From: Mangrovicoccus sp. HB161399
GTDB taxonomy: Bacteria > Pseudomonadota > Alphaproteobacteria > Rhodobacterales > Rhodobacteraceae
NCBI RefSeq assembly: GCF_013184745.1
Contig: NZ_JAATVU010000057.1
Coordinates: 1-37,537, forward strand
Direction of reading: 5' to 3'
DNA: 37,537 bases
Part shown: positions 198 through 37,537 of the stretch, piece after piece
Position numbering within the stretch: position 1 is the stretch's first letter
Layout of the letters: each line of letters opens with the position of its first letter
Notes under the pieces: generated by a model
What the model was told of the DNA's origin: nothing
Databases searched by the model: none
The model's input: only the letters and a program-made list of their open reading frames with translations
Position numbers and translations under genes: made by a program

Positions 198-1418
198 TCA
201 GGCGAACAGCTCGTGGCAGAGCTCCAGCGCCTCCACCAGCTTGTCCACTTCGGCCTCGGTATTGTACAGGCCGAAGGATGCCCGGCAGGTCGCAGAAACG
301 CCCAGATGCGCCATCAGCGGCTGGGCGCAATGGTGGCCCGCCCGCACCGCGACGCCCTTCTTGTCGAGCACCGTCGAGATGTCATGGGCATGGGCCGCGC
401 CCTCCAGCGTGAAGGAGAAGATCGCCGCCTTGTCCGGCGCATGCCCCTGCACGTTGACCCAGTTGAGCCCGGCCAGCCGGTCGCGCGCATAGGCGGCCAG
501 CCGCGCCTCGTGCGCCGCCACGTTCTCCATGCCCAGATCCATCAGGTAGTCGAGCGCAACGCCCAGCCCGATGGTCTGGACGATGCCGGGCGTGCCCGCC
601 TCGAACTTCATCGGCGGATCGGCATAGCTGACCGCGTCGCGGGAAACCTCGCGGATCATGTCGCCGCCGCCGAGGAAGGGACGCATCTCGGCCATCCGCT
701 CCCTGCGGATCCAGATCGCCCCGGAACCGGAGGGACCGTAGAGCTTGTGCCCGGTGATCGCATAGAAATCGCAGCCGATCTCCTCGACATCCACCGGCAT
801 GTGGACCGAGCCCTGCGAGCCGTCGACCAGGACCGGCACGCCCTTTTCGCGCGCCGCGTCGCAGATCGCCTTCACGTCCACCTTGGTGCCCAGCACGTTC
901 GACAGCTGGGTGACCGCGACCAGCCTGGTCCTGGGCCCGATCGCGTCGATCACCTTCTGCGGATCGAGCACGCCCATGGCATCGGTCTCGACCCATTTCA
1001 GCACGGCCCCCTGGCGCTCGCGCAGGAAATGCCAGGGCACGATATTGGCATGGTGTTCCATCACCGACAGCACGATTTCGTCGCCCGGCTGGAAACGCGG
1101 CGCCGCCCAGGCATAGGAGACCAGGTTGATCCCCTCGGTCGTCCCGGAGGTGAAGACGACCTCGTGCTCGTCCCTGGCGCCGAGGAAGCGGGCGACCTTG
1201 CCGCGCACCGCCTCGTATTTCTCGGTGGCGAGGTTCGACAGGTAGTGCAGCCCGCGATGGACGTTGGAATATTCCTCGGCATAGCCGCGGGTGACCGCGT
1301 CGATCACCGCCTGCGGCTTCTGCGCGGACGCGCCGTTGTCGAGATAGACCAGCGGCTTGCCGTTCACCTCGCGCGAGAGGATCGGGAAATCGGCACGGAT
1401 CTTGTCGATGTCAAACAC
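198..1418 (-). CDS. sufS: SufS group II cysteine desulfurase
   Basis: This PLP enzyme removes sulfur from cysteine as a persulfide and passes it to the SufBCD scaffold. It has 406 residues, normal for SufS. Visible landmarks are the N-terminal DKIRADFPILSREV block, H123 in MEHHAN, the PLP lysine K225 in ITGHKLYGPSG, and the catalytic cysteine C378 in SATCRASFGLYNT, the group II signature. I chose the GTG at 1418 because AGGAGG lies five bases before it; a GTG at 1424 is in frame but sits directly against that Shine-Dalgarno sequence. It is the last gene of the suf operon and overlaps the stop of the Yip1-like gene upstream by 8 nt. No SufE, SufT or SufA follows; the tRNA comes next. Confidence 0.95.
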   Translation of the reverse strand: MFDIDKIRADFPILSREVNGKPLVYLDNGASAQKPQAVIDAVTRGYAEEYSNVHRGLHYLSNLATEKYEAVRGKVARFLGARDEHEVVFTSGTTEGINLVSYAWAAPRFQPGDEIVLSVMEHHANIVPWHFLRERQGAVLKWVETDAMGVLDPQKVIDAIGPRTRLVAVTQLSNVLGTKVDVKAICDAAREKGVPVLVDGSQGSVHMPVDVEEIGCDFYAITGHKLYGPSGSGAIWIRRERMAEMRPFLGGGDMIREVSRDAVSYADPPMKFEAGTPGIVQTIGLGVALDYLMDLGMENVAAHEARLAAYARDRLAGLNWVNVQGHAPDKAAIFSFTLEGAAHAHDISTVLDKKGVAVRAGHHCAQPLMAHLGVSATCRASFGLYNTEAEVDKLVEALELCHELFA

Positions 1419-2040
1419 CGGCACCTCCTGAAAAGGTCAGCCCCATGAAGGACAGGATGAGGGACAGGGCGAAGCTGATGGCCAGCACCGAGGCGATGAT
1501 CATCAGGAAGACCAGCCACAGGTTGCTGAAGCCGTGGATCTCGGCAACGAAGGCGGTGAAGACCCAGGCGACCAGCGCGAAGCTCGCTGCCATGACCAGG
1601 AGCCCGGGAAGGCTCGACCCGGTGAAGGACAGCAGGAACAGCAGCACCAACTGCGCCAGCTGGACGGCGACCATGACGATCTCGAGCCAGCTCAGCAGGA
1701 GCAGGCTGCGCTCCAGCGTGCCCTGCCCGCCCATGATGCGGCCGATATGGTGCACGGCGAAGACCGTCAGGACGAGCCCGCCCAGCTGCAGCCCCGCCAT
1801 GAAGAGCGGTCCCAGCACCACCGCGTCGCCGCCGGCACCGGGCGAAGGAAGGAACAGGAGCCCCGCCGCCTGCCCGATCAGCGCGGACACGATGGCGACG
1901 GTGAAGAGGATCAGCCACAGCACGTTCTGCGGCAGCTGCATGGCCAGGATCTGGCGGGCCGTGCCGCGCGGATCGCGCAGCGTGGCCAGGACGAGGGCAA
2001 TGATCCCCCCGGGGGTGAAATCGTCAAGGCGCGGTGTCAT
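1411..2040 (-). CDS. Yip1-like multi-pass membrane protein
   Basis: A 209-residue integral membrane protein. Hydrophobic stretches at about 40-64, 77-97, 112-138, 145-168 and 172-200 suggest five membrane spans after a short cytosolic N terminus. The pattern and the LRDPRGTARQIL N-terminal segment match the Yip1 domain superfamily as found in alphaproteobacteria. Its function is unknown. It starts at an ATG with GGGGAGG just before it, follows the second Yip1-like gene by 9 nt, and its stop overlaps sufS, so it is translated as part of the suf operon. Whether it takes part in Fe-S assembly cannot be read from the sequence. Confidence 0.8.
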   Translation of the reverse strand: MTPRLDDFTPGGIIALVLATLRDPRGTARQILAMQLPQNVLWLILFTVAIVSALIGQAAGLLFLPSPGAGGDAVVLGPLFMAGLQLGGLVLTVFAVHHIGRIMGGQGTLERSLLLLSWLEIVMVAVQLAQLVLLFLLSFTGSSLPGLLVMAASFALVAWVFTAFVAEIHGFSNLWLVFLMIIASVLAISFALSLILSFMGLTFSGGAGV

Positions 2041-2049
2041 GGACCTCCC

Positions 2050-2568
2050 CTACGCCAGCCCGCCGCTGCCGGCAATGCCCGGCCCGGGACGCGCCGCCGC
2101 ACGCATGGCGAGGACCCAGATTGCCGCCCAGCCGAGCAGCGCGACGGTCGTCACGAGGTCAAGTGCAGCACCCGGCCCGTTCGCCGCCGAGACCAGCCCG
2201 CGGCACAGCCACATCGGGCTGGCGGCGAGGAAGGCCCAGAAGGTCGCCAGCCTCGCGGCATACCAGCTGGCGCCGCCGCCGAAGAGCTTCGACAGCCCGT
2301 TCGCGGCGGCGGCCAGCACGTAGAAGGCAAGCGGCGCGAAGAACATCCAGACCAGCAGCTCGCCGGAAGCGCGTTCCACCAGGTCGTTGGCCTCGGCCAG
2401 CGCCGCCTCGCGCGACAGCCGCGGAAGCTGCGCGACGAAGACCAGTGCGCAGCCGAGCATCAGGTAGGCCAGCGCCCGCCCCTCATGCTCGGGCAGCGCC
2501 AGCCGCCGCCGGACCACATGGCCCGGCCGGCGGTAGCTCGCCAGGATGTCCGCCGCGACCGAGGACAT
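2050..2568 (-). CDS. Yip1-like membrane protein, second copy
   Basis: A 172-residue membrane protein with hydrophobic stretches at about 33-48, 70-92, 104-122 and 136-156. The N-terminal region (SYRRPGHVVRRRL) resembles the segment that precedes the first span in Yip1-like proteins, so I place it in the same superfamily as its downstream neighbour, though the two are diverged. Its ATG overlaps the sufD stop codon by one base (TGATG), implying translational coupling. Function unknown. Confidence 0.75.
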   Translation of the reverse strand: MSSVAADILASYRRPGHVVRRRLALPEHEGRALAYLMLGCALVFVAQLPRLSREAALAEANDLVERASGELLVWMFFAPLAFYVLAAAANGLSKLFGGGASWYAARLATFWAFLAASPMWLCRGLVSAANGPGAALDLVTTVALLGWAAIWVLAMRAAARPGPGIAGSGGLA

Positions 2569-3857
2569 CAGCCGCGGCGCCGGGCCAGCCAGCCGTCCAG
2601 CCGTTCGCGGATCTCGCCCGCCAGGCTGTCGTCCTCGATCTCGTCGAGCGCCTCGGCGAGGAAGGCCAGCGTCAGCAGATCCTGGGCCTCGCGCCGCGGC
2701 ACGCCGCGCGAGCGCAGGTAGTAGAGCGCCGTGTCGTCGATCGCCCCCGAGGTGGAGCCATGCGAGCAGGCCACGTCATCGGCATAGATTTCCAGCTCGG
2801 GCTTGGCGAGGAACTGGCTGTCCTCGTCGAGCAGCAGCGACTGGCTGATCTGGTAGCCGTCGGTCTTCTGCGCGTCTTTCTTCACCAGGATCTTGCCCTG
2901 GAAGACGCCAGTCGCGCCGTTGCGCAGCACCTTCTTGAAGACCTGGCGGCTTTCGCAGTTCACCGCGTCATGGGTGACGAAGACCGTGTCGTCGTGGTGG
3001 AAATCACCGTCGCCCATCGAGGCGCCCGCGACATGGGCCACCGCATCGTCGCCGGTGAACTCGATCACGCATTCGTTGCGGGTCAGCACGCCGTTCGCCG
3101 TCATGGTGAAAGACTTGAACAGGCTCTCCTCGCCCAGCCGGGCAAAGATATGCGTGGCCGCGCGGCGCTCGTGGTCGCGCCCCTGGGCACGGACGTGGTG
3201 GAACTTGCCGCCGTCGGCGACCTCGACTTCCAGCACCTTGTTGAACCGCGCCGCCGCCGGGCCGTTCTCCAGCAGCGTGATCTCGGCGCCCGACTCGACC
3301 TTGACGGCATGGTGCAGGATCGCGTCGGAGACTTCGTCCCGGTGGATATAGACCAGCGAGACCGGCTTCGACGGCGTGCCGGTGACGTGGATCAGGATCC
3401 CGTCAGTGGCAAAGGCAGTGTTCAGCGCCGCCAGCGGACGCTCCACCGGGGACTGGCCGCGCGCTTCAAGAACGCCGTACAAGTCCTTGGCCCAATGGAT
3501 ATCCTTCGTTCCGGCTTCGGCCAGACGCTCGATGGTGATGCCTTCGAGTTCCAGCGCGTCGGATTGCGCCGGGTCGAACACGCCGTCGACGAAAGTGATC
3601 TTCAGGCGGTCGCGCTGCGAGAAGATCGGCGTCTCCGATCCCTCGAACACCGCCGCCCGCGGCGCCCCGGGCGCGTTCAGCGTGTCCGGCCGGGTGTATT
3701 TCCAGTATTCGTCGCGGGCACTCGGCAGGCCGGTCGCGCCCAGACGGGACAGCGCGTCCTTGCGCGCCGCGGCGCTCCAGCCGCCCTCGGGCAGGCTCAG
3801 CGCCGCCAGCCGCGCCTCCAGCGCGTCAAGCTTCGGCTTCAGCAGGGCAACCATCAT
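2568..3857 (-). CDS. sufD: SufD Fe-S scaffold subunit
   Basis: SufD pairs with SufB and the SufC ATPase to form the SufBC2D scaffold on which Fe-S clusters are built. The protein has 429 residues, usual for SufD, with the conserved C-terminal beta-helix region containing DDVACSHGSTSGAIDDTALY and YYLRSRGVPRREAQ, followed by a helical tail (LLTLAFLAEALDEIED). The ATG at 3857 overlaps the sufC stop as ATGATGG (4 nt); a second ATG three bases on is equally possible. The longer open frame upstream lies inside sufC and is not coding. Confidence 0.95.
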   Translation of the reverse strand: MMVALLKPKLDALEARLAALSLPEGGWSAAARKDALSRLGATGLPSARDEYWKYTRPDTLNAPGAPRAAVFEGSETPIFSQRDRLKITFVDGVFDPAQSDALELEGITIERLAEAGTKDIHWAKDLYGVLEARGQSPVERPLAALNTAFATDGILIHVTGTPSKPVSLVYIHRDEVSDAILHHAVKVESGAEITLLENGPAAARFNKVLEVEVADGGKFHHVRAQGRDHERRAATHIFARLGEESLFKSFTMTANGVLTRNECVIEFTGDDAVAHVAGASMGDGDFHHDDTVFVTHDAVNCESRQVFKKVLRNGATGVFQGKILVKKDAQKTDGYQISQSLLLDEDSQFLAKPELEIYADDVACSHGSTSGAIDDTALYYLRSRGVPRREAQDLLTLAFLAEALDEIEDDSLAGEIRERLDGWLARRRG

Positions 3858-4609
3858 GCCACCTCCGACAGGATGTCCGCGTAGCCGTTCTTCTCGACTT
3901 CCATCGCCAGCTCCGGGCCGCCGGTCTTGACGATGCGGCCATTGGCCATGATGTGCACGACATCCGGGTGGATGTGGTCGAGCAGGCGCTGGTAGTGCGT
4001 GATCACGAGGAAGGCGCGGCCTTCGTCGCGCAGCGCGTTGACGCCGTCCGAGACCAGCTTCATCGCGTCGACATCGAGGCCGGAATCGGTCTCGTCTAGG
4101 ATGCACATCTTCGGTTCCAGCATGGCCATCTGCAGGATTTCGTTGCGCTTCTTTTCGCCGCCGGAGAAGCCGACATTGACCGGGCGCTTAAGCATCTCGG
4201 CGTCGATCTTCAGCTCCTTCGCCTTGGCGCGGACGAGCTTGAGGAAGTCCGCGGAGCTGATCTCGTCTTCGCCGCGCAGCTTCCGCTGGGCATTCAGGGC
4301 CGTGCGCAGGAAGGTCATGTTGCCGACGCCGGGGATTTCGACCGGGTACTGGAACGCCAGGAACAGGCCCTTGGCCGCGCGCTCTTCCGGCTCGAGACCC
4401 AGCAGATCCTCGCCGTTCAGCGTCGCCGTGCCGCCAGTCACCTCGTAGCCGTCCCGGCCCGACAGGACATAGGACATGGTCGACTTGCCCGAGCCGTTCG
4501 GCCCCATGATGGCATGGACCGACCCGGCCTCGACGGTCAGGTCGACGCCCTTGAGGATCTGCTTGTCCTCTTCTTCGAGTTTGACTTCGAGCCCCTTGAT
4601 TTCCAGCAT
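3854..4609 (-). CDS. sufC: SufC ATPase
   Basis: A soluble ABC-type ATPase that powers the SufBC2D scaffold. In the 251 residues the Walker A motif GPNGSGKST is at 36-44, the signature appears as FSGGEKKRNE, and Walker B as MCILDETDSGLD, followed by the switch histidine in LVITHYQRLL. These are the typical SufC forms (SGGEKKR, DETDSGLD). It overlaps sufD by 4 nt. Unusually, it is separated from sufB by two unrelated genes. Confidence 0.97.
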   Translation of the reverse strand: MLEIKGLEVKLEEEDKQILKGVDLTVEAGSVHAIMGPNGSGKSTMSYVLSGRDGYEVTGGTATLNGEDLLGLEPEERAAKGLFLAFQYPVEIPGVGNMTFLRTALNAQRKLRGEDEISSADFLKLVRAKAKELKIDAEMLKRPVNVGFSGGEKKRNEILQMAMLEPKMCILDETDSGLDVDAMKLVSDGVNALRDEGRAFLVITHYQRLLDHIHPDVVHIMANGRIVKTGGPELAMEVEKNGYADILSEVA

Positions 4610-4628
4610 GTTACGTCCTCTTCTTTAT

Positions 4629-5423
4629 CTAGTTCGCCCTGAGTTCGGGCGGAAAGCTGTCCTTGAGCCGCGCCTTCGCGGCCGCGATGCCCGAAGCATG
4701 GGGCAGCGCCCCTTCAGGCAGGTCGTCAAGCCGCGCCGGGATCTCTTCCGGCTGGATCGGCTCTCCGAGATTTCTTTCTATGCCAAGGGCATAGTCGTTG
4801 AACTTGAAGTGCGGCTCGGCATGGATCCCCTCCGGATCGACCCAGGTCGAAGCGACGCCGTAGGCGTCCGCCGTCACCAGCCCGTGCAGGGACGAACTGA
4901 AGACATGCCGCGCCCCCGCGATCAGCCGCACCGCCTCCAGCGGGTCGCCGGCGCGGACATCGACCAGCCGGAGGCCCGGCCGCTCTGCCAGCGCCTGCCA
5001 CACCGGAAGGTCGGCATGCGAAAAGTGAGGAACGACAGCGACTTCTTCGCCGGTCCTGATGTCCTCGCCCAGCACTTCGCCGATCAGCAGCCCCGGGTCC
5101 CCGAAGGCCTCGACCGGGACATGCAGCACTTCCGCCGTCTTCGGCCCGCGCAAGGCGGCGAAGTCGACATTGGCAGTGAAGCGGCGCCCCACCGGCTTCA
5201 TGCAGCCCGCACCCCAGACAATCGGCCGGTGTCCGCGCGGTTCGCGGTAGGCTTTCGCCACCGGCCGCAGGATCGAGCCCAAGGCGAAGATCTCGGCCTC
5301 TTCCGGCTCGGCCCACTCCACCGCGCGACCCGCGGCATGCGCCACGATCAGCGGAGAGATGCCATCCCCGAAATTCGGCTTCTTCCGCCACCAGAAGAGC
5401 CGCAGAGGCGGACGCGCCGCCAT
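4629..5423 (-). CDS. Polysaccharide pyruvyl transferase-like protein
   Basis: A 264-residue protein with the layout of the polysaccharide pyruvyl transferase family (CsaB/WcaK/ExoV type). The N terminus FWWRKKPNFGDGISPLIV carries the NFGD motif at 18-21. Further on are IFALGSIL, IVWGAGCM and a second-half SSSLHGLVTADAYGV block, the SLHG motif typical of the family. Known members add a pyruvate ketal to cell-surface sugars. The ATG overlaps the ybjQ-like stop by one base, and sufC follows 19 bases after its stop, so it is embedded in the suf operon. A role in Fe-S assembly is not implied by the fold; it could be a passenger gene for surface sugar modification. Confidence 0.8.
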   Translation of the reverse strand: MAARPPLRLFWWRKKPNFGDGISPLIVAHAAGRAVEWAEPEEAEIFALGSILRPVAKAYREPRGHRPIVWGAGCMKPVGRRFTANVDFAALRGPKTAEVLHVPVEAFGDPGLLIGEVLGEDIRTGEEVAVVPHFSHADLPVWQALAERPGLRLVDVRAGDPLEAVRLIAGARHVFSSSLHGLVTADAYGVASTWVDPEGIHAEPHFKFNDYALGIERNLGEPIQPEEIPARLDDLPEGALPHASGIAAAKARLKDSFPPELRAN

Positions 5424-5734
5424 CAGCCGACGGTCACCGACGTGCCGGAGGCCGAGACCATCAGCATGTTGTTGATGACCTCGTAGTCGATGTCGACGCC
5501 GACCACCGCATTGCCGCCCGCCGCGCGGGCGCGTTCCTCCATCTCGCGCAGCGCGGTTTCCCGCGCCTCGCCGAGCGAACGCTCATAGGCGCCGGACCGG
5601 CCGCCGATGATGTCGGTGATCCCGGCGAACATGTCCCGGAAGACATTCGCGCCGAGGATCGCCTCGCCCACGACGATGCCGTGATAGGCGGTGATCGACT
5701 TGCCTTCGATGCTTGGGGTGGTCGTGACGATCAT
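5423..5734 (-). CDS. YbjQ/DUF74 family protein
   Basis: A small cytosolic protein of 103 residues in the YbjQ (DUF74, often called putative heavy-metal-binding) family. It shows the family core [23 protein letters not shown] and [12 protein letters not shown], with the C-terminal [11 protein letters not shown]. The family forms pentameric rings in known structures; the biochemical role is unsettled. I used the ATG at 5734 because the conserved domain begins there (TTPSIEG). An in-frame ATG at 5770 has a better Shine-Dalgarno (GGAGA, six bases away) and would add 12 residues. It lies between sufB and the pyruvyl transferase-like gene. Confidence 0.87.
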
Positions 5735-5869
5735 GGATGCGCCCTTCGACTTGCTCCAGGGGTTGCTCATGCCAATCTCCAACGGCCGGGACGGCCAGAT
5801 ACAATCCAAGCGGCGGGCCAAGCCGTTTCAACGCCCTGGCCGCCGGTTTTCATGCGCAACCGATCCAGA

Positions 5870-7432
<1,563 letters not shown>

Positions 7433-35864: not shown

Positions 35865-36872
35865 CTATTCCGCCGCCAGCGCGCCGGGAATGAGCGCCAG
35901 CGCCTCTTCCACGATCTCGGCCCCCGCGCCGGGACGCGCCGCAGCGGTCGACAGATGCCGCCGCCAGGCCCGCGCGCCCGGACGTCCCGCAAACAGCCCC
36001 AGCATGTGGCGCGTCACCGAATGCGCCCGTCCGCCCGCATCCACATGCGCGGCGATATAGGGGATCATTGCGCGTGCCGCGTCCTCGGCCGAGCTGTCGG
36101 GCCCCGCGGCCCCGTAGATCCGCCGGTCGGCCGCCGCAAGGATGGCGGCAGGTTCATGATAGGCCGCGCGGCCGATCATCACCCCGTCCAGCCCCTCGGC
36201 CAGGAACGCCTCCGCCTGCTCCAGCGAGGCGATGCCGCCATTGACCGAGATGTGCAGCTCCGGGTAGCGGCGCTTCATCGCCACGACGAGCGGGTAGTCG
36301 AGCGGCGGAATGTCCCTGTTTTCCTTGGGACTGAGCCCCTTGAGCCAGGCCTTGCGCGCATGCACGGCGAAGCGGCGGATGCCCGAGGCGGCGACCGTCT
36401 CGAGGAAGCGCGGCAGCACATCGGCCGGATCGTCCTCGTCGACGCCGATGCGGCATTTGACGGTCACCTCGGCTGGGCTCGCCGAGATCATGGCGGCAGT
36501 GCAGCGGGCGACCAGATCAGGATCCTTCATCAGCACCGCGCCGAAGCAGCCCGACTGCACCTTGTCCGAAGGGCAGCCGACATTGAGGTTGATCTCGCAA
36601 TAGCCCGCCTGCCAGCCGAGCGCCGCGGCCTCGGCCAGCTCCTCCGGCTCCGACCCGCCGAGCTGCAGCGCCAGTGGACGCTCCTCCGCGGCATGGTCCA
36701 GCAGGTGCAGCGCGCCGCCGCGGACCAGCGCGGGCGCGGTCACCATTTCGGTGTAGAGCAGCGTTTCCTTCGACAGCTGCCGGTGCAGCATCCGGCAATG
36801 CCGGTCGGTCCAGTCCATCATCGGCGCCACGGAAAGTCGAGAAGCCTTTTTAATCAGCAACTTATGCTCCAT
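35865..36872 (-). CDS. dusA: DusA tRNA-dihydrouridine synthase
   Basis: An FMN enzyme that reduces uridine 20/20a in the tRNA D loop. In 335 residues: SVAPMMDWTDRHCRMLHR at 14-31, INLNVGCPSDKVQSGCFG with catalytic C100, FAVHARKAWLKGLSPKENR and the ISVNGGIAS phosphate-binding turn. I start at ATG 36872. An ATG at 36914 is in frame, but it overlaps a TATAAT hexamer that is the probable -10. The first 13 codons (KLLIKKASRL) use A+T-rich codons unlike the rest of the gene, as if the 5' end had been swapped by integration of the neighbouring element. Confidence 0.94.
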   Translation of the reverse strand: MEHKLLIKKASRLSVAPMMDWTDRHCRMLHRQLSKETLLYTEMVTAPALVRGGALHLLDHAAEERPLALQLGGSEPEELAEAAALGWQAGYCEINLNVGCPSDKVQSGCFGAVLMKDPDLVARCTAAMISASPAEVTVKCRIGVDEDDPADVLPRFLETVAASGIRRFAVHARKAWLKGLSPKENRDIPPLDYPLVVAMKRRYPELHISVNGGIASLEQAEAFLAEGLDGVMIGRAAYHEPAAILAAADRRIYGAAGPDSSAEDAARAMIPYIAAHVDAGGRAHSVTRHMLGLFAGRPGARAWRRHLSTAAARPGAGAEIVEEALALIPGALAAE

Positions 36873-36912
36873 GTTCTCGCTGTGTTCACGCTCCGCTGCG
36901 TCAGAATTTTCC

Positions 36913-36918
36913 ATTATA
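36913..36918 (-). promoter_or_regulatory. Candidate -10 of dusA within the element side
   Basis: TATAAT on the minus strand, 40 bases before the chosen dusA ATG, in a distinctly A+T-rich stretch (about 36840-36950). The -35 is weak (GTGAAG at 17 bases). If used, the promoter of dusA is provided by integrated DNA. Confidence 0.4.
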
Positions 36919-36951
36919 TTTCAACGTTGCCCAACTTCACTTTTCGACCGA

Positions 36952-36989
36952 TAGTCCTCGGGACTACCAAAATGCTCTCGAGGACTACC
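36952..36989. repeat. GGACTACC repeats upstream of the integrase
   Basis: GGACTACC occurs at 36961-36968 and 36982-36989, 21 bases apart, and TAGTCC at 36952-36957 forms an inverted repeat with GGACTA at 36961-36966 around TCG. The cluster ends a few bases before the integrase ATG, overlapping its ribosome binding site, so it may be an operator or a recombinase arm site. Confidence 0.45.
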
Positions 36990-36992
36990 GGC

Positions 36993-37426
36993 ATGGGCAC
37001 CATTATAGAGCGCGAGCGCAAGGATGGCACGACCTCATTCCGCGCGCAGATCGTCATCAAGGAACGCGGCGAGACTCTGCACCAGGAGAGCCGCAGCTTC
37101 GACCGGAGGATGACTGCATCTGCATGGATGAAGCGTCGCGAGAAGGAGCTCCGGGCCCCGGGCGGGCTGAAGGCGGCACGCGGCTCCGGCGCGACGCTTG
37201 AAGAGGCGATCCAAGCCTATGTGAAGGATCACCGGGAGCGAATTGGAAAGACGAAGGCCCAGGTGCTGAGAGCGATCGAGATGCACGACATTGCCAGGAT
37301 GCGCTGCGACGAAATCCGCAGCGACGACATCGTGGACTGGGCACGCGGGCTGCTGGCAGGCAGGAGCGCCACGACCGTCTGCAACTACCTATCCCACCTA
37401 TCCGCTGTTGCGGCTGTTGCGGAACC
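36993..37426 (+). pseudogene. Tyrosine-type integrase, N-terminal part, cut by IS
   Basis: The open frame begins MGTIIERERKDGTTSFRAQI, a basic arm-type N terminus, followed by RSFDRRMTASAWMKRREKEL and a SAM-like core-binding domain (ATLEEAIQAYVKDHRERI, IRSDDIVDWARGLL, TVCNYLSHLSAV). About 145 codons remain. The pattern is that of site-specific integrases of genomic islands and prophages. The catalytic domain with its Arg-His-Arg-Tyr residues is missing because IS3-like sequence starts at about 37427; the rest may lie beyond the window. GAGG lies nine bases before the ATG. It is divergent from dusA, its probable target gene. Confidence 0.75.
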
Positions 37427-37537
37427 TGAGCTTGCCCCCGGATCCCGGACTGGGCCGATATTCACTATGCGGCCATCTTGGCGGCCATGTCGATCCTTGC
37501 CTGCTCCGGCGTGCGATATCCGATGCTCGAGTGGCGG
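37427..37537 (-). mobile_element. End of an IS3-family insertion sequence, partial
   Basis: From 37427 the sequence TGAGCTTGCCCCCGG begins with TGA, as IS3-family terminal repeats do, and it is followed within 40 bases by the stop codon of a transposase on the minus strand. The element continues past the window edge, so the other end and the target-site duplication cannot be seen. The exact junction is an estimate. Confidence 0.65.
37465..37537 (-). CDS. IS3-family transposase OrfB, C-terminal fragment
   Basis: The last 23 codons before a TAG read RHSSIGYRTPEQARIDMAAK and then MAA. The HSSxGYRTP motif is the hallmark of the C terminus of IS3-family OrfB (DDE integrase-fold) transposases. The gene is cut by the window end. 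Confidence 0.85.
   Translation of the reverse strand, partial: RHSSIGYRTPEQARIDMAAKMAA

Follow-up and report, generated by a model that had tools for sequence, protein, structure and literature searches.

A dusA gene in Mangrovicoccus that apparently keeps the start lent by a dead integrative element

Elements inserted at dusA and the present locus

Islands inserted at the 5' end of dusA have been described in Farrugia 2015 (PMC4482086). Their integrases form a family, the dusA-associated integrases (DAIs), encoded divergently at the 5' end of the gene; the attachment site (att) lies within dusA, the 5' end of the host gene is displaced to the far att and the element supplies a 5' end of its own. 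Phages AH2, BcepIL02, BcepMigl, DC1, H66 and mEp460 are named there as DAI carriers. In the Vibrio island IMEVchUSA3, which is complete and mobile, the new N terminus of dusA is likewise derived from the element, and the element's promoter was shown by a lacZ fusion to drive dusA (Durand 2021, PMC8409611). Arm-type sites, which flank the core on either side as short repeats, are known from tyrosine recombinases with an N-terminal arm-binding domain, such as the integrases of lambda and Tn916, and three strands with a helix make up the arm-binding fold of the Tn916 group (PMC8138268).

The locus presented here agrees with the islands of Farrugia 2015 in the integrase family, in its divergent position, in the part of dusA that holds the att, in the element-supplied 5' end and, as read from relatives, in the displaced host 5' end. 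With IMEVchUSA3 it shares an element-derived N terminus of dusA, argued here from sequence. Unlike the islands of Farrugia 2015, its integrase has been cut by an insertion sequence (IS) and lacks the catalytic half, no far att was found in its genome, and congeners stand at other stages of loss. It can be said that an element-supplied dusA start is known biology, and that the additions are a dead integrase, decay states within one genus and an array resembling arm sites. We give a probability of about nine in ten that positions 36780-36992 represent the att junction on the integrase side of an integrative element specific for dusA, that this element has since died, and that dusA keeps the borrowed start. 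The window, that is, the whole stretch analysed, is contig C277 (37,537 bp) of an assembly of 7.18 Mb in 323 contigs, and because the contig ends at 37537 there is no assembled sequence to its right. The features of the junction are as follows:

35865-36834, minus strand: dusA body of host origin, running from the conserved SVAPMMDWTDRHCR block through the stop; PF01207
36805-36827, minus strand: attachment core GCNCCNATGATGGAYTGGACNGA, coding for APMMDWTD; 0 mismatches
36835-36992, no strand: A+T-rich segment taken as element-supplied from its GC and congener homology; dusA 5' codons and divergent intergenic region
36872-36914, minus strand: candidate dusA starts, two in-frame ATG (36914 and 36872)
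36913-36918, minus strand: candidate TATAAT in the A+T-rich part, overlapping the 36914 start codon and outside any scored promoter-like site
36993-37426, plus strand: N-terminal 144 codons of a DAI, 74% identical to the DAI of Mangrovicoccus ximenensis; without catalytic domain
37002-37007, minus strand: second TATAAT, with GTGCCA at 37025-37030 (spacer of 17 nt); lies within the start of the integrase and is directed toward dusA
37427-37537, minus strand: end of an IS3-type insertion sequence (C-terminal end of the transposase), running off the contig

The dusA frame (35865-36914, minus strand) carries a Dus domain (PF01207, E 6.4e-75 in a Pfam profile search), and the amino-acid identity of its body is 85% to the congener G198 and 83% to the congener G199. 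The frame stays open through the attachment core, its 5' end being replaced and the reading frame restored. An earlier note on this DNA had placed the junction within 36780-36840, and the conserved core at 36805-36827 indeed lies inside that interval. A sharp fall of base composition from about 36830 outward had also been noted; it is real for the 158 bp of 36835-36992, which have a GC of 0.475 against 0.705 in the dusA body (just 3 of the 3738 158-nt blocks of the window reach so low a value), but it is short, the integrase fragment being back at 0.634. The segment is homologous, position by position, with both G198 and G199. The integrase frame (MGTII...) starts at 36993, with a further in-frame ATG at 36972, and diverges from dusA. 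The distance of 120 bases given in the earlier note is correct, approximately, for ATG 36872; from ATG 36914, which aligns gap-free with an ATG in G199 as read from the alignments, it is 78 nt. The TATAAT that had been pointed out in the A+T-rich part is present at 36913-36918, and there is another at 37002-37007.

The integrase fragment alone matches no Pfam and no NCBIfam family, and among PHROGs it matches one family of unknown function and one integrase family. By tblastn 74 phage records match it, all below 60% identity; among the matches listed are the integrases of phages AH2, BcepIL02, BcepMigl, DC1 and H66 and of an mEp460 isolate (28-43% identical to the fragment), and the DAI of Bradyrhizobium BTAi1 is matched as well. 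Matches occur in 26 of 198 family genomes, its own included. Judged by this similarity to named DAIs and by its divergent position at dusA, the fragment is a DAI, as the earlier note had held in assigning it to a dusA-adjacent integrase family. Upstream of dusA in G022, G031, G071, G116, G173, G177 and G188 lies another group of integrases, which is more divergent and matches the DAI profile from position 19 onward.

Contigs of named genomes were used to see how constant the arrangement is, the best 80 of 186 stretches encoding a DAI relative being kept. A dusA core lies divergently, 137-200 bp from the integrase start, in 73 of these best 80 of 186; the remaining seven have no dusA core within 1.5 kb, one of them with a flank of just 174 bp. 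Where the core is present, median GC is 0.38 in the 60 nt preceding it and 0.66 in the dusA bodies. This recurrence, together with a truncated dusA-like 5' end at 20 far att sites (see below), upholds the proposal of the earlier note that the dusA start was supplied by the element, and a mobile-element origin of the start is supported, the insertion itself being read from relatives. The same recurrence, nearly one distance from the same dusA codons, speaks against the A+T-rich 5' end being the ancestral start of dusA, next to which an integrase landed by chance or rearrangement. We regard that explanation as very improbable; the remaining points on both of its sides are given below.

Loss of the integrase and probable decay of the element

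The integrase frame is interrupted at 37427, after codon 144, by the end of the IS, which had been overlooked in the earlier note. This IS end matches at least 40 other places in the same genome, in full or in part (88 candidates), several of them at contig ends; in 17 of 19 other copies inspected the similarity begins at the same base as 37427 and the flanks are unrelated. Another copy in the genome encodes rve_2 and rve_3 domains, and hence the element is read as IS3-type. A search with the intact G198 protein did not find the catalytic half of the integrase in the 323 contigs; it recovered the N-terminal piece at 74% and, elsewhere, matches that reach at most 32% identity. The catalytic residues of tyrosine recombinases (RHRH/Y) are absent from the window copy; its intact counterpart in G198 carries PF00589 together with the invariant residues R216, H301, R304, H327 and Y336, assigned by reading. 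As the frame is cut after codon 144 and the catalytic half is missing, the window integrase is to be regarded as a dead DAI, a pseudogene that by its sequence could not work as assembled. Excision of the window element as a circle is improbable, and the island is probably now a relic.

It is unlikely that a complete island persists beyond the IS, hidden by the contig break, with the IS insertion being recent. Such a situation would fit a contig that stops within a repeated IS, a typical break point of assemblies, and a far att is present in 18 of 29 named DAI genomes, but the integrase as assembled could not function, its other half is missing from all contigs, and no att core seen elsewhere in the genome resembles anything but an ordinary gene. 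Cargo of the element may remain beyond the IS without its integrase.

The search for a second att used the 23-bp core pattern with up to 3 mismatches. No convincing copy was found in the 323 contigs, the window contig itself ending about 700 bp from the core. Four candidates, each with 3 mismatches, were set aside: C1:205345 lies in an ordinary coding gene by reading, C190:41194 is of a type that recurs in G198, G199 and G219, C277:4500 is on the wrong side and strand and of a type recurring in G198, and C101:64911 was not accepted after inspection of its flanks. In G198 the 148 kb on the island side contain no second core, and neither does the rest of that contig; an arm-pair candidate at 174725/174737 there is due to chance, being inside a reading frame taken by reading for lepA. 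The second copy of the junction anticipated by the earlier note was thus met with in neither place, and for this reason the insertion is inferred from relatives.

Those relatives commonly show both ends. The 18 of 29 named genomes mentioned have another copy of the core toward the island, on the same contig and strand, and so do BTAi1 and Phyllobacterium sp. 628, two of five further DAI genomes outside the genus; on the same contig and island side it was not found in Salipiger bermudensis, Pseudooceanicola spongiae and G013. A far copy on the same contig and side is missing in 11 of 29 and 3 of 5 other DAI genomes, so that the absence of a second att weighs little as evidence of decay. The far cores of the 20 islands have 0-3 mismatches, and each of the 20 far sites has a frame that enters its core as a dusA 5' end would and terminates within 7-60 codons. 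This truncated frame represents the displaced start described in Farrugia 2015 (PMC4482086), either that of the host or, in tandems, perhaps that of a neighbouring element. Three genomes (G221, G238 and G242; loci L148, L201 and L218), from Bradyrhizobium valentinum, Afifella sp. IM 167 and Taklimakanibacter lacteus, have the dusA core at least three times on a single contig and strand, which suggests dusA islands in tandem.

Within the genus three states are seen. G198 has an intact DAI of 359 aa adjoining dusA on a contig of 859,972 bp, and about 0.4 kb behind it come genes read as an ABC transporter. In G199 no DAI was found by search. Upstream of dusA, G199 shares about 208 nt of homology with the window (32/60, 30/58 and 66/90 identities, each reached by 0 of 2000 shuffles; the next block, 26/92, is background), which extends to 37045 and thus takes in about 17 integrase codons in register (24 from ATG 36972), followed by a gene read as aroB. 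The start of G199 is GC-rich (0.77 over 60 nt), so composition alone would have missed this homology. Ungapped identities are 123/200 for the window against G199, 130/200 against G198 and 105/200 between the two congeners, whose local alignment does not stand out from shuffled sequences (134 of 500 score as high); against 72 other DAIs the window reaches at most 82 identities over 200 positions (median 59.5). In G200, which is more distant, nothing upstream of dusA is homologous to the window beyond the core, and an unmistakably empty site that still has the original 5' end is seen in no genome of the genus. The window-genome counterpart of the aroB-like gene (C46), tried as a pointer to the far end, has no adjoining dusA fragment. 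Reading frames at 198-7432 of the window resemble, by reading, a suf iron-sulfur cluster operon; a 90% match to 33-2271 lies about 79 kb from dusA in G198, so gene order differs within the genus.

The earlier note had proposed comparing DusA N termini with relatives lacking the integrase. The outcome is divided: G199 has a homologous terminus and no integrase by search, and this, like the missing second att, favours an ancestral start, but remnant integrase codons follow in register beyond the dusA start, and the upstream sequence of G200 is unrelated. We explain both contrary results, the terminus of G199 and the lack of a second att in G198, by decay. Likely the window and congener state goes back to one ancestral insertion; since synonymous divergence between the window and G198 is higher in the integrase (1.37) than in dusA (0.50), separate insertions of sister elements in these two genomes would also be possible. 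On a tree of about 150 residues the window DAI groups with that of G198 (local support 0.99). The nearest DAIs outside Mangrovicoccus, L141 and L143, share the AGGACTACC array discussed below; their reading frames are short (140 and 181 codons, the L143 stretch ending about 600 bp after the start), and they may be broken too.

An HMM survey of the region upstream of dusA covered 127 family genomes (138 loci less 4 without core, 4 outside the family and 3 duplicates). It takes in three congeners, is partly hand-picked and left out 14 of the 25 other fragment-matching genomes, most on purpose, so its counts, 16 genomes with an intact DAI N part, 12 broken or partial and 99 with none, are not frequencies. 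Controls (co-directional strand, shuffled) gave no match at E 0.01, the best being 0.33. The median GC of the dusA start is 0.58 in the 99 genomes without DAI match, 0.375 in the 16 intact and 0.41 in the 12 broken or partial cases, which again argues against an ancestral A+T-rich start; a start GC of at most 0.45 in 12 of the 99 is in its favour. Nine of the 12 cases were re-read with longer flanks and four show clear damage, namely a frame change or stop in G035, G099 and G100 and an internal deletion in G063. In G051, G055, G087 and G089 the match is partial and these could be divergent integrases, G131 runs toward a contig end, and the remaining three of the 12 sit at contig edges. The survey missed the short scar of G199, hence small scars are undercounted.

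The order of events would be the following. A DAI tyrosine recombinase would have joined the attP of the element to the conserved APMMDWTD codons of dusA, shifting the host 5' end to the element's far side and giving dusA a new in-frame start and presumably a promoter. Later an IS would have cut the integrase after codon 144 and the element would have died. With the integrase cut, its catalytic half gone and no distal att found, dusA seems to be left permanently with the borrowed start. G199, retaining a homologous start and a scar of integrase codons only, is its like, and it seems that the borrowed start outlives the element. A housekeeping gene would thus keep a foreign start after the death of the donor, and it may be asked whether dusA depends on element DNA; dependence would select against clean excision.

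As for the promoter, only one of the two TATAAT has a passable -35: the pair of 37002-37007 with GTGCCA gave 10 of 12 matches in promoter scoring. Related hexamers are present in G198 and, by reading of the alignment, in G199. They are absent in the other DAIs scanned (55 non-redundant loci), so the pair was dropped as a general dusA promoter and none is claimed. In the window an element-borne promoter presumably drives dusA.

The repeat array between dusA and the integrase

The A+T-rich segment contains three short repeats:

36950-36958, minus strand: arm-type-like copy C, inverted, AGGACTATC
36960-36968, plus strand: arm-type-like copy A, GGGACTACC
36981-36989, plus strand: arm-type-like copy B, AGGACTACC, 21 bp after A

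The window array reads GATAGTCCT-C-GGGACTACC, then AGGACTACC 21 bp past the second copy. Arrays were scored as one 9-mer in inverted orientation plus two direct ones spaced by 19-22 bp, with a threshold of 14/18, which is reached in 45 of 54 non-redundant DAI loci (including the window and G198) and in 0.2 after dinucleotide shuffling; as the layout was chosen after the repeats had been seen, this count is post hoc and the far att provides the independent test. The motif varies by clade (TGTTGTACC, GCAGTACCG, GGACCAAAT, TGTAGCACT, AGGACTACC and others) and the layout is constant.

For the far-att test a 9-mer within 1 mismatch of any of the three copies was sought in the 250 bp inside the far att, after four of 20 islands (L402, L409, L414 and L416) scoring below 14 on the integrase side had been dropped beforehand. 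The motif of the clade recurs there in 15 of the 16 islands with a clear integrase-side array, the miss being L400, nearly always at +53 to +90 and often paired 12 bp apart. It was found in none of 64 control blocks (four further in per island), and motifs swapped between islands (pairs differing in at least 3 of 9 positions) recurred in 3.3 islands on average and in at most 10. In the window the integrase-side cluster alone is present, repeats on both sides being known from relatives.

The DAI modelled on the G198 sequence (mean pLDDT 87.6) has an N terminus of three strands and a helix, and full-length lambda integrase is among its best fold matches. Similarity of motifs follows the identity of the N-terminal domain (r 0.435) more closely than that of the catalytic (0.333) and core-binding (0.181) domains; given the catalytic domain the partial correlation of the N-terminal domain is 0.341, a value that none of 300 permutations attains. 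These values come from 58 loci with a clear array and 1526 pairs below 85% identity, and relatedness is only partly removed from them. The repeats at 36950-36989 most likely form a cluster of integrase arm sites belonging to attP, as predicted from sequence; fold and covariation point indirectly to binding by the N-terminal domain. The likeness to lambda Int and Tn916 Int (PMC8138268) would lie in the N-terminal fold and in short repeats that flank the core on either side; unlike theirs, the motif of the putative DAI sites differs strongly between clades while the layout is kept.

The main rival to the arm-type reading is that the array binds the excisionase RdfN, which is PrtN-like, or a repressor of the integrase gene, instead of the N-terminal domain of the integrase. 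RdfN is the directionality factor of the dusA island in Durand 2021 (PMC8409611) and should bind near the att, and 3 bp separate the end of copy B from the start of the integrase, as would suit an operator. We consider this doubtful, since motif similarity tracks the N-terminal domain above the other two and copies lie on both sides of the att. The arm-type reading is rather to be favoured, and with it the wider proposal that dusA elements carry an arm-site code of fixed layout (an inverted and two direct copies 19-22 bp apart, with far direct copies about 50-90 bp inside the far att) which drifts with the N-terminal domain of the integrase; the Mangrovicoccus element would have decayed around its array with the dusA start kept, and related elements would be kept apart by their arm sites and not by the core. 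Word searches of Durand 2021 (PMC8409611) and Farrugia 2015 (PMC4482086) gave no mention of arm-type sites, and a limited search of the open-access literature gave no paper joining dusA, integrase and arm-type sites. An array of this kind could serve as a simple finder for both ends of dusA elements, including tandem or dead ones, and lets one test how a large integrase family discriminates its own att at a shared chromosomal target.

Phages were scanned for the same pattern. Three of four attP regions scanned have an integrase-side array together with one far copy (RHph_Y3_1) or two (AH2 and Haddon), the chance of at least one in 250 nt being 0.11-0.15; the BcepIL02 region has no clear array. 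A fifth phage stretch, L421 (OQ658365.1), was left out because it holds a dusA gene: in this Pseudomonas phage record the integrase has an annotated tRNA dihydrouridine synthase A gene beside it, which is apparently host DNA retained in the record of a prophage.
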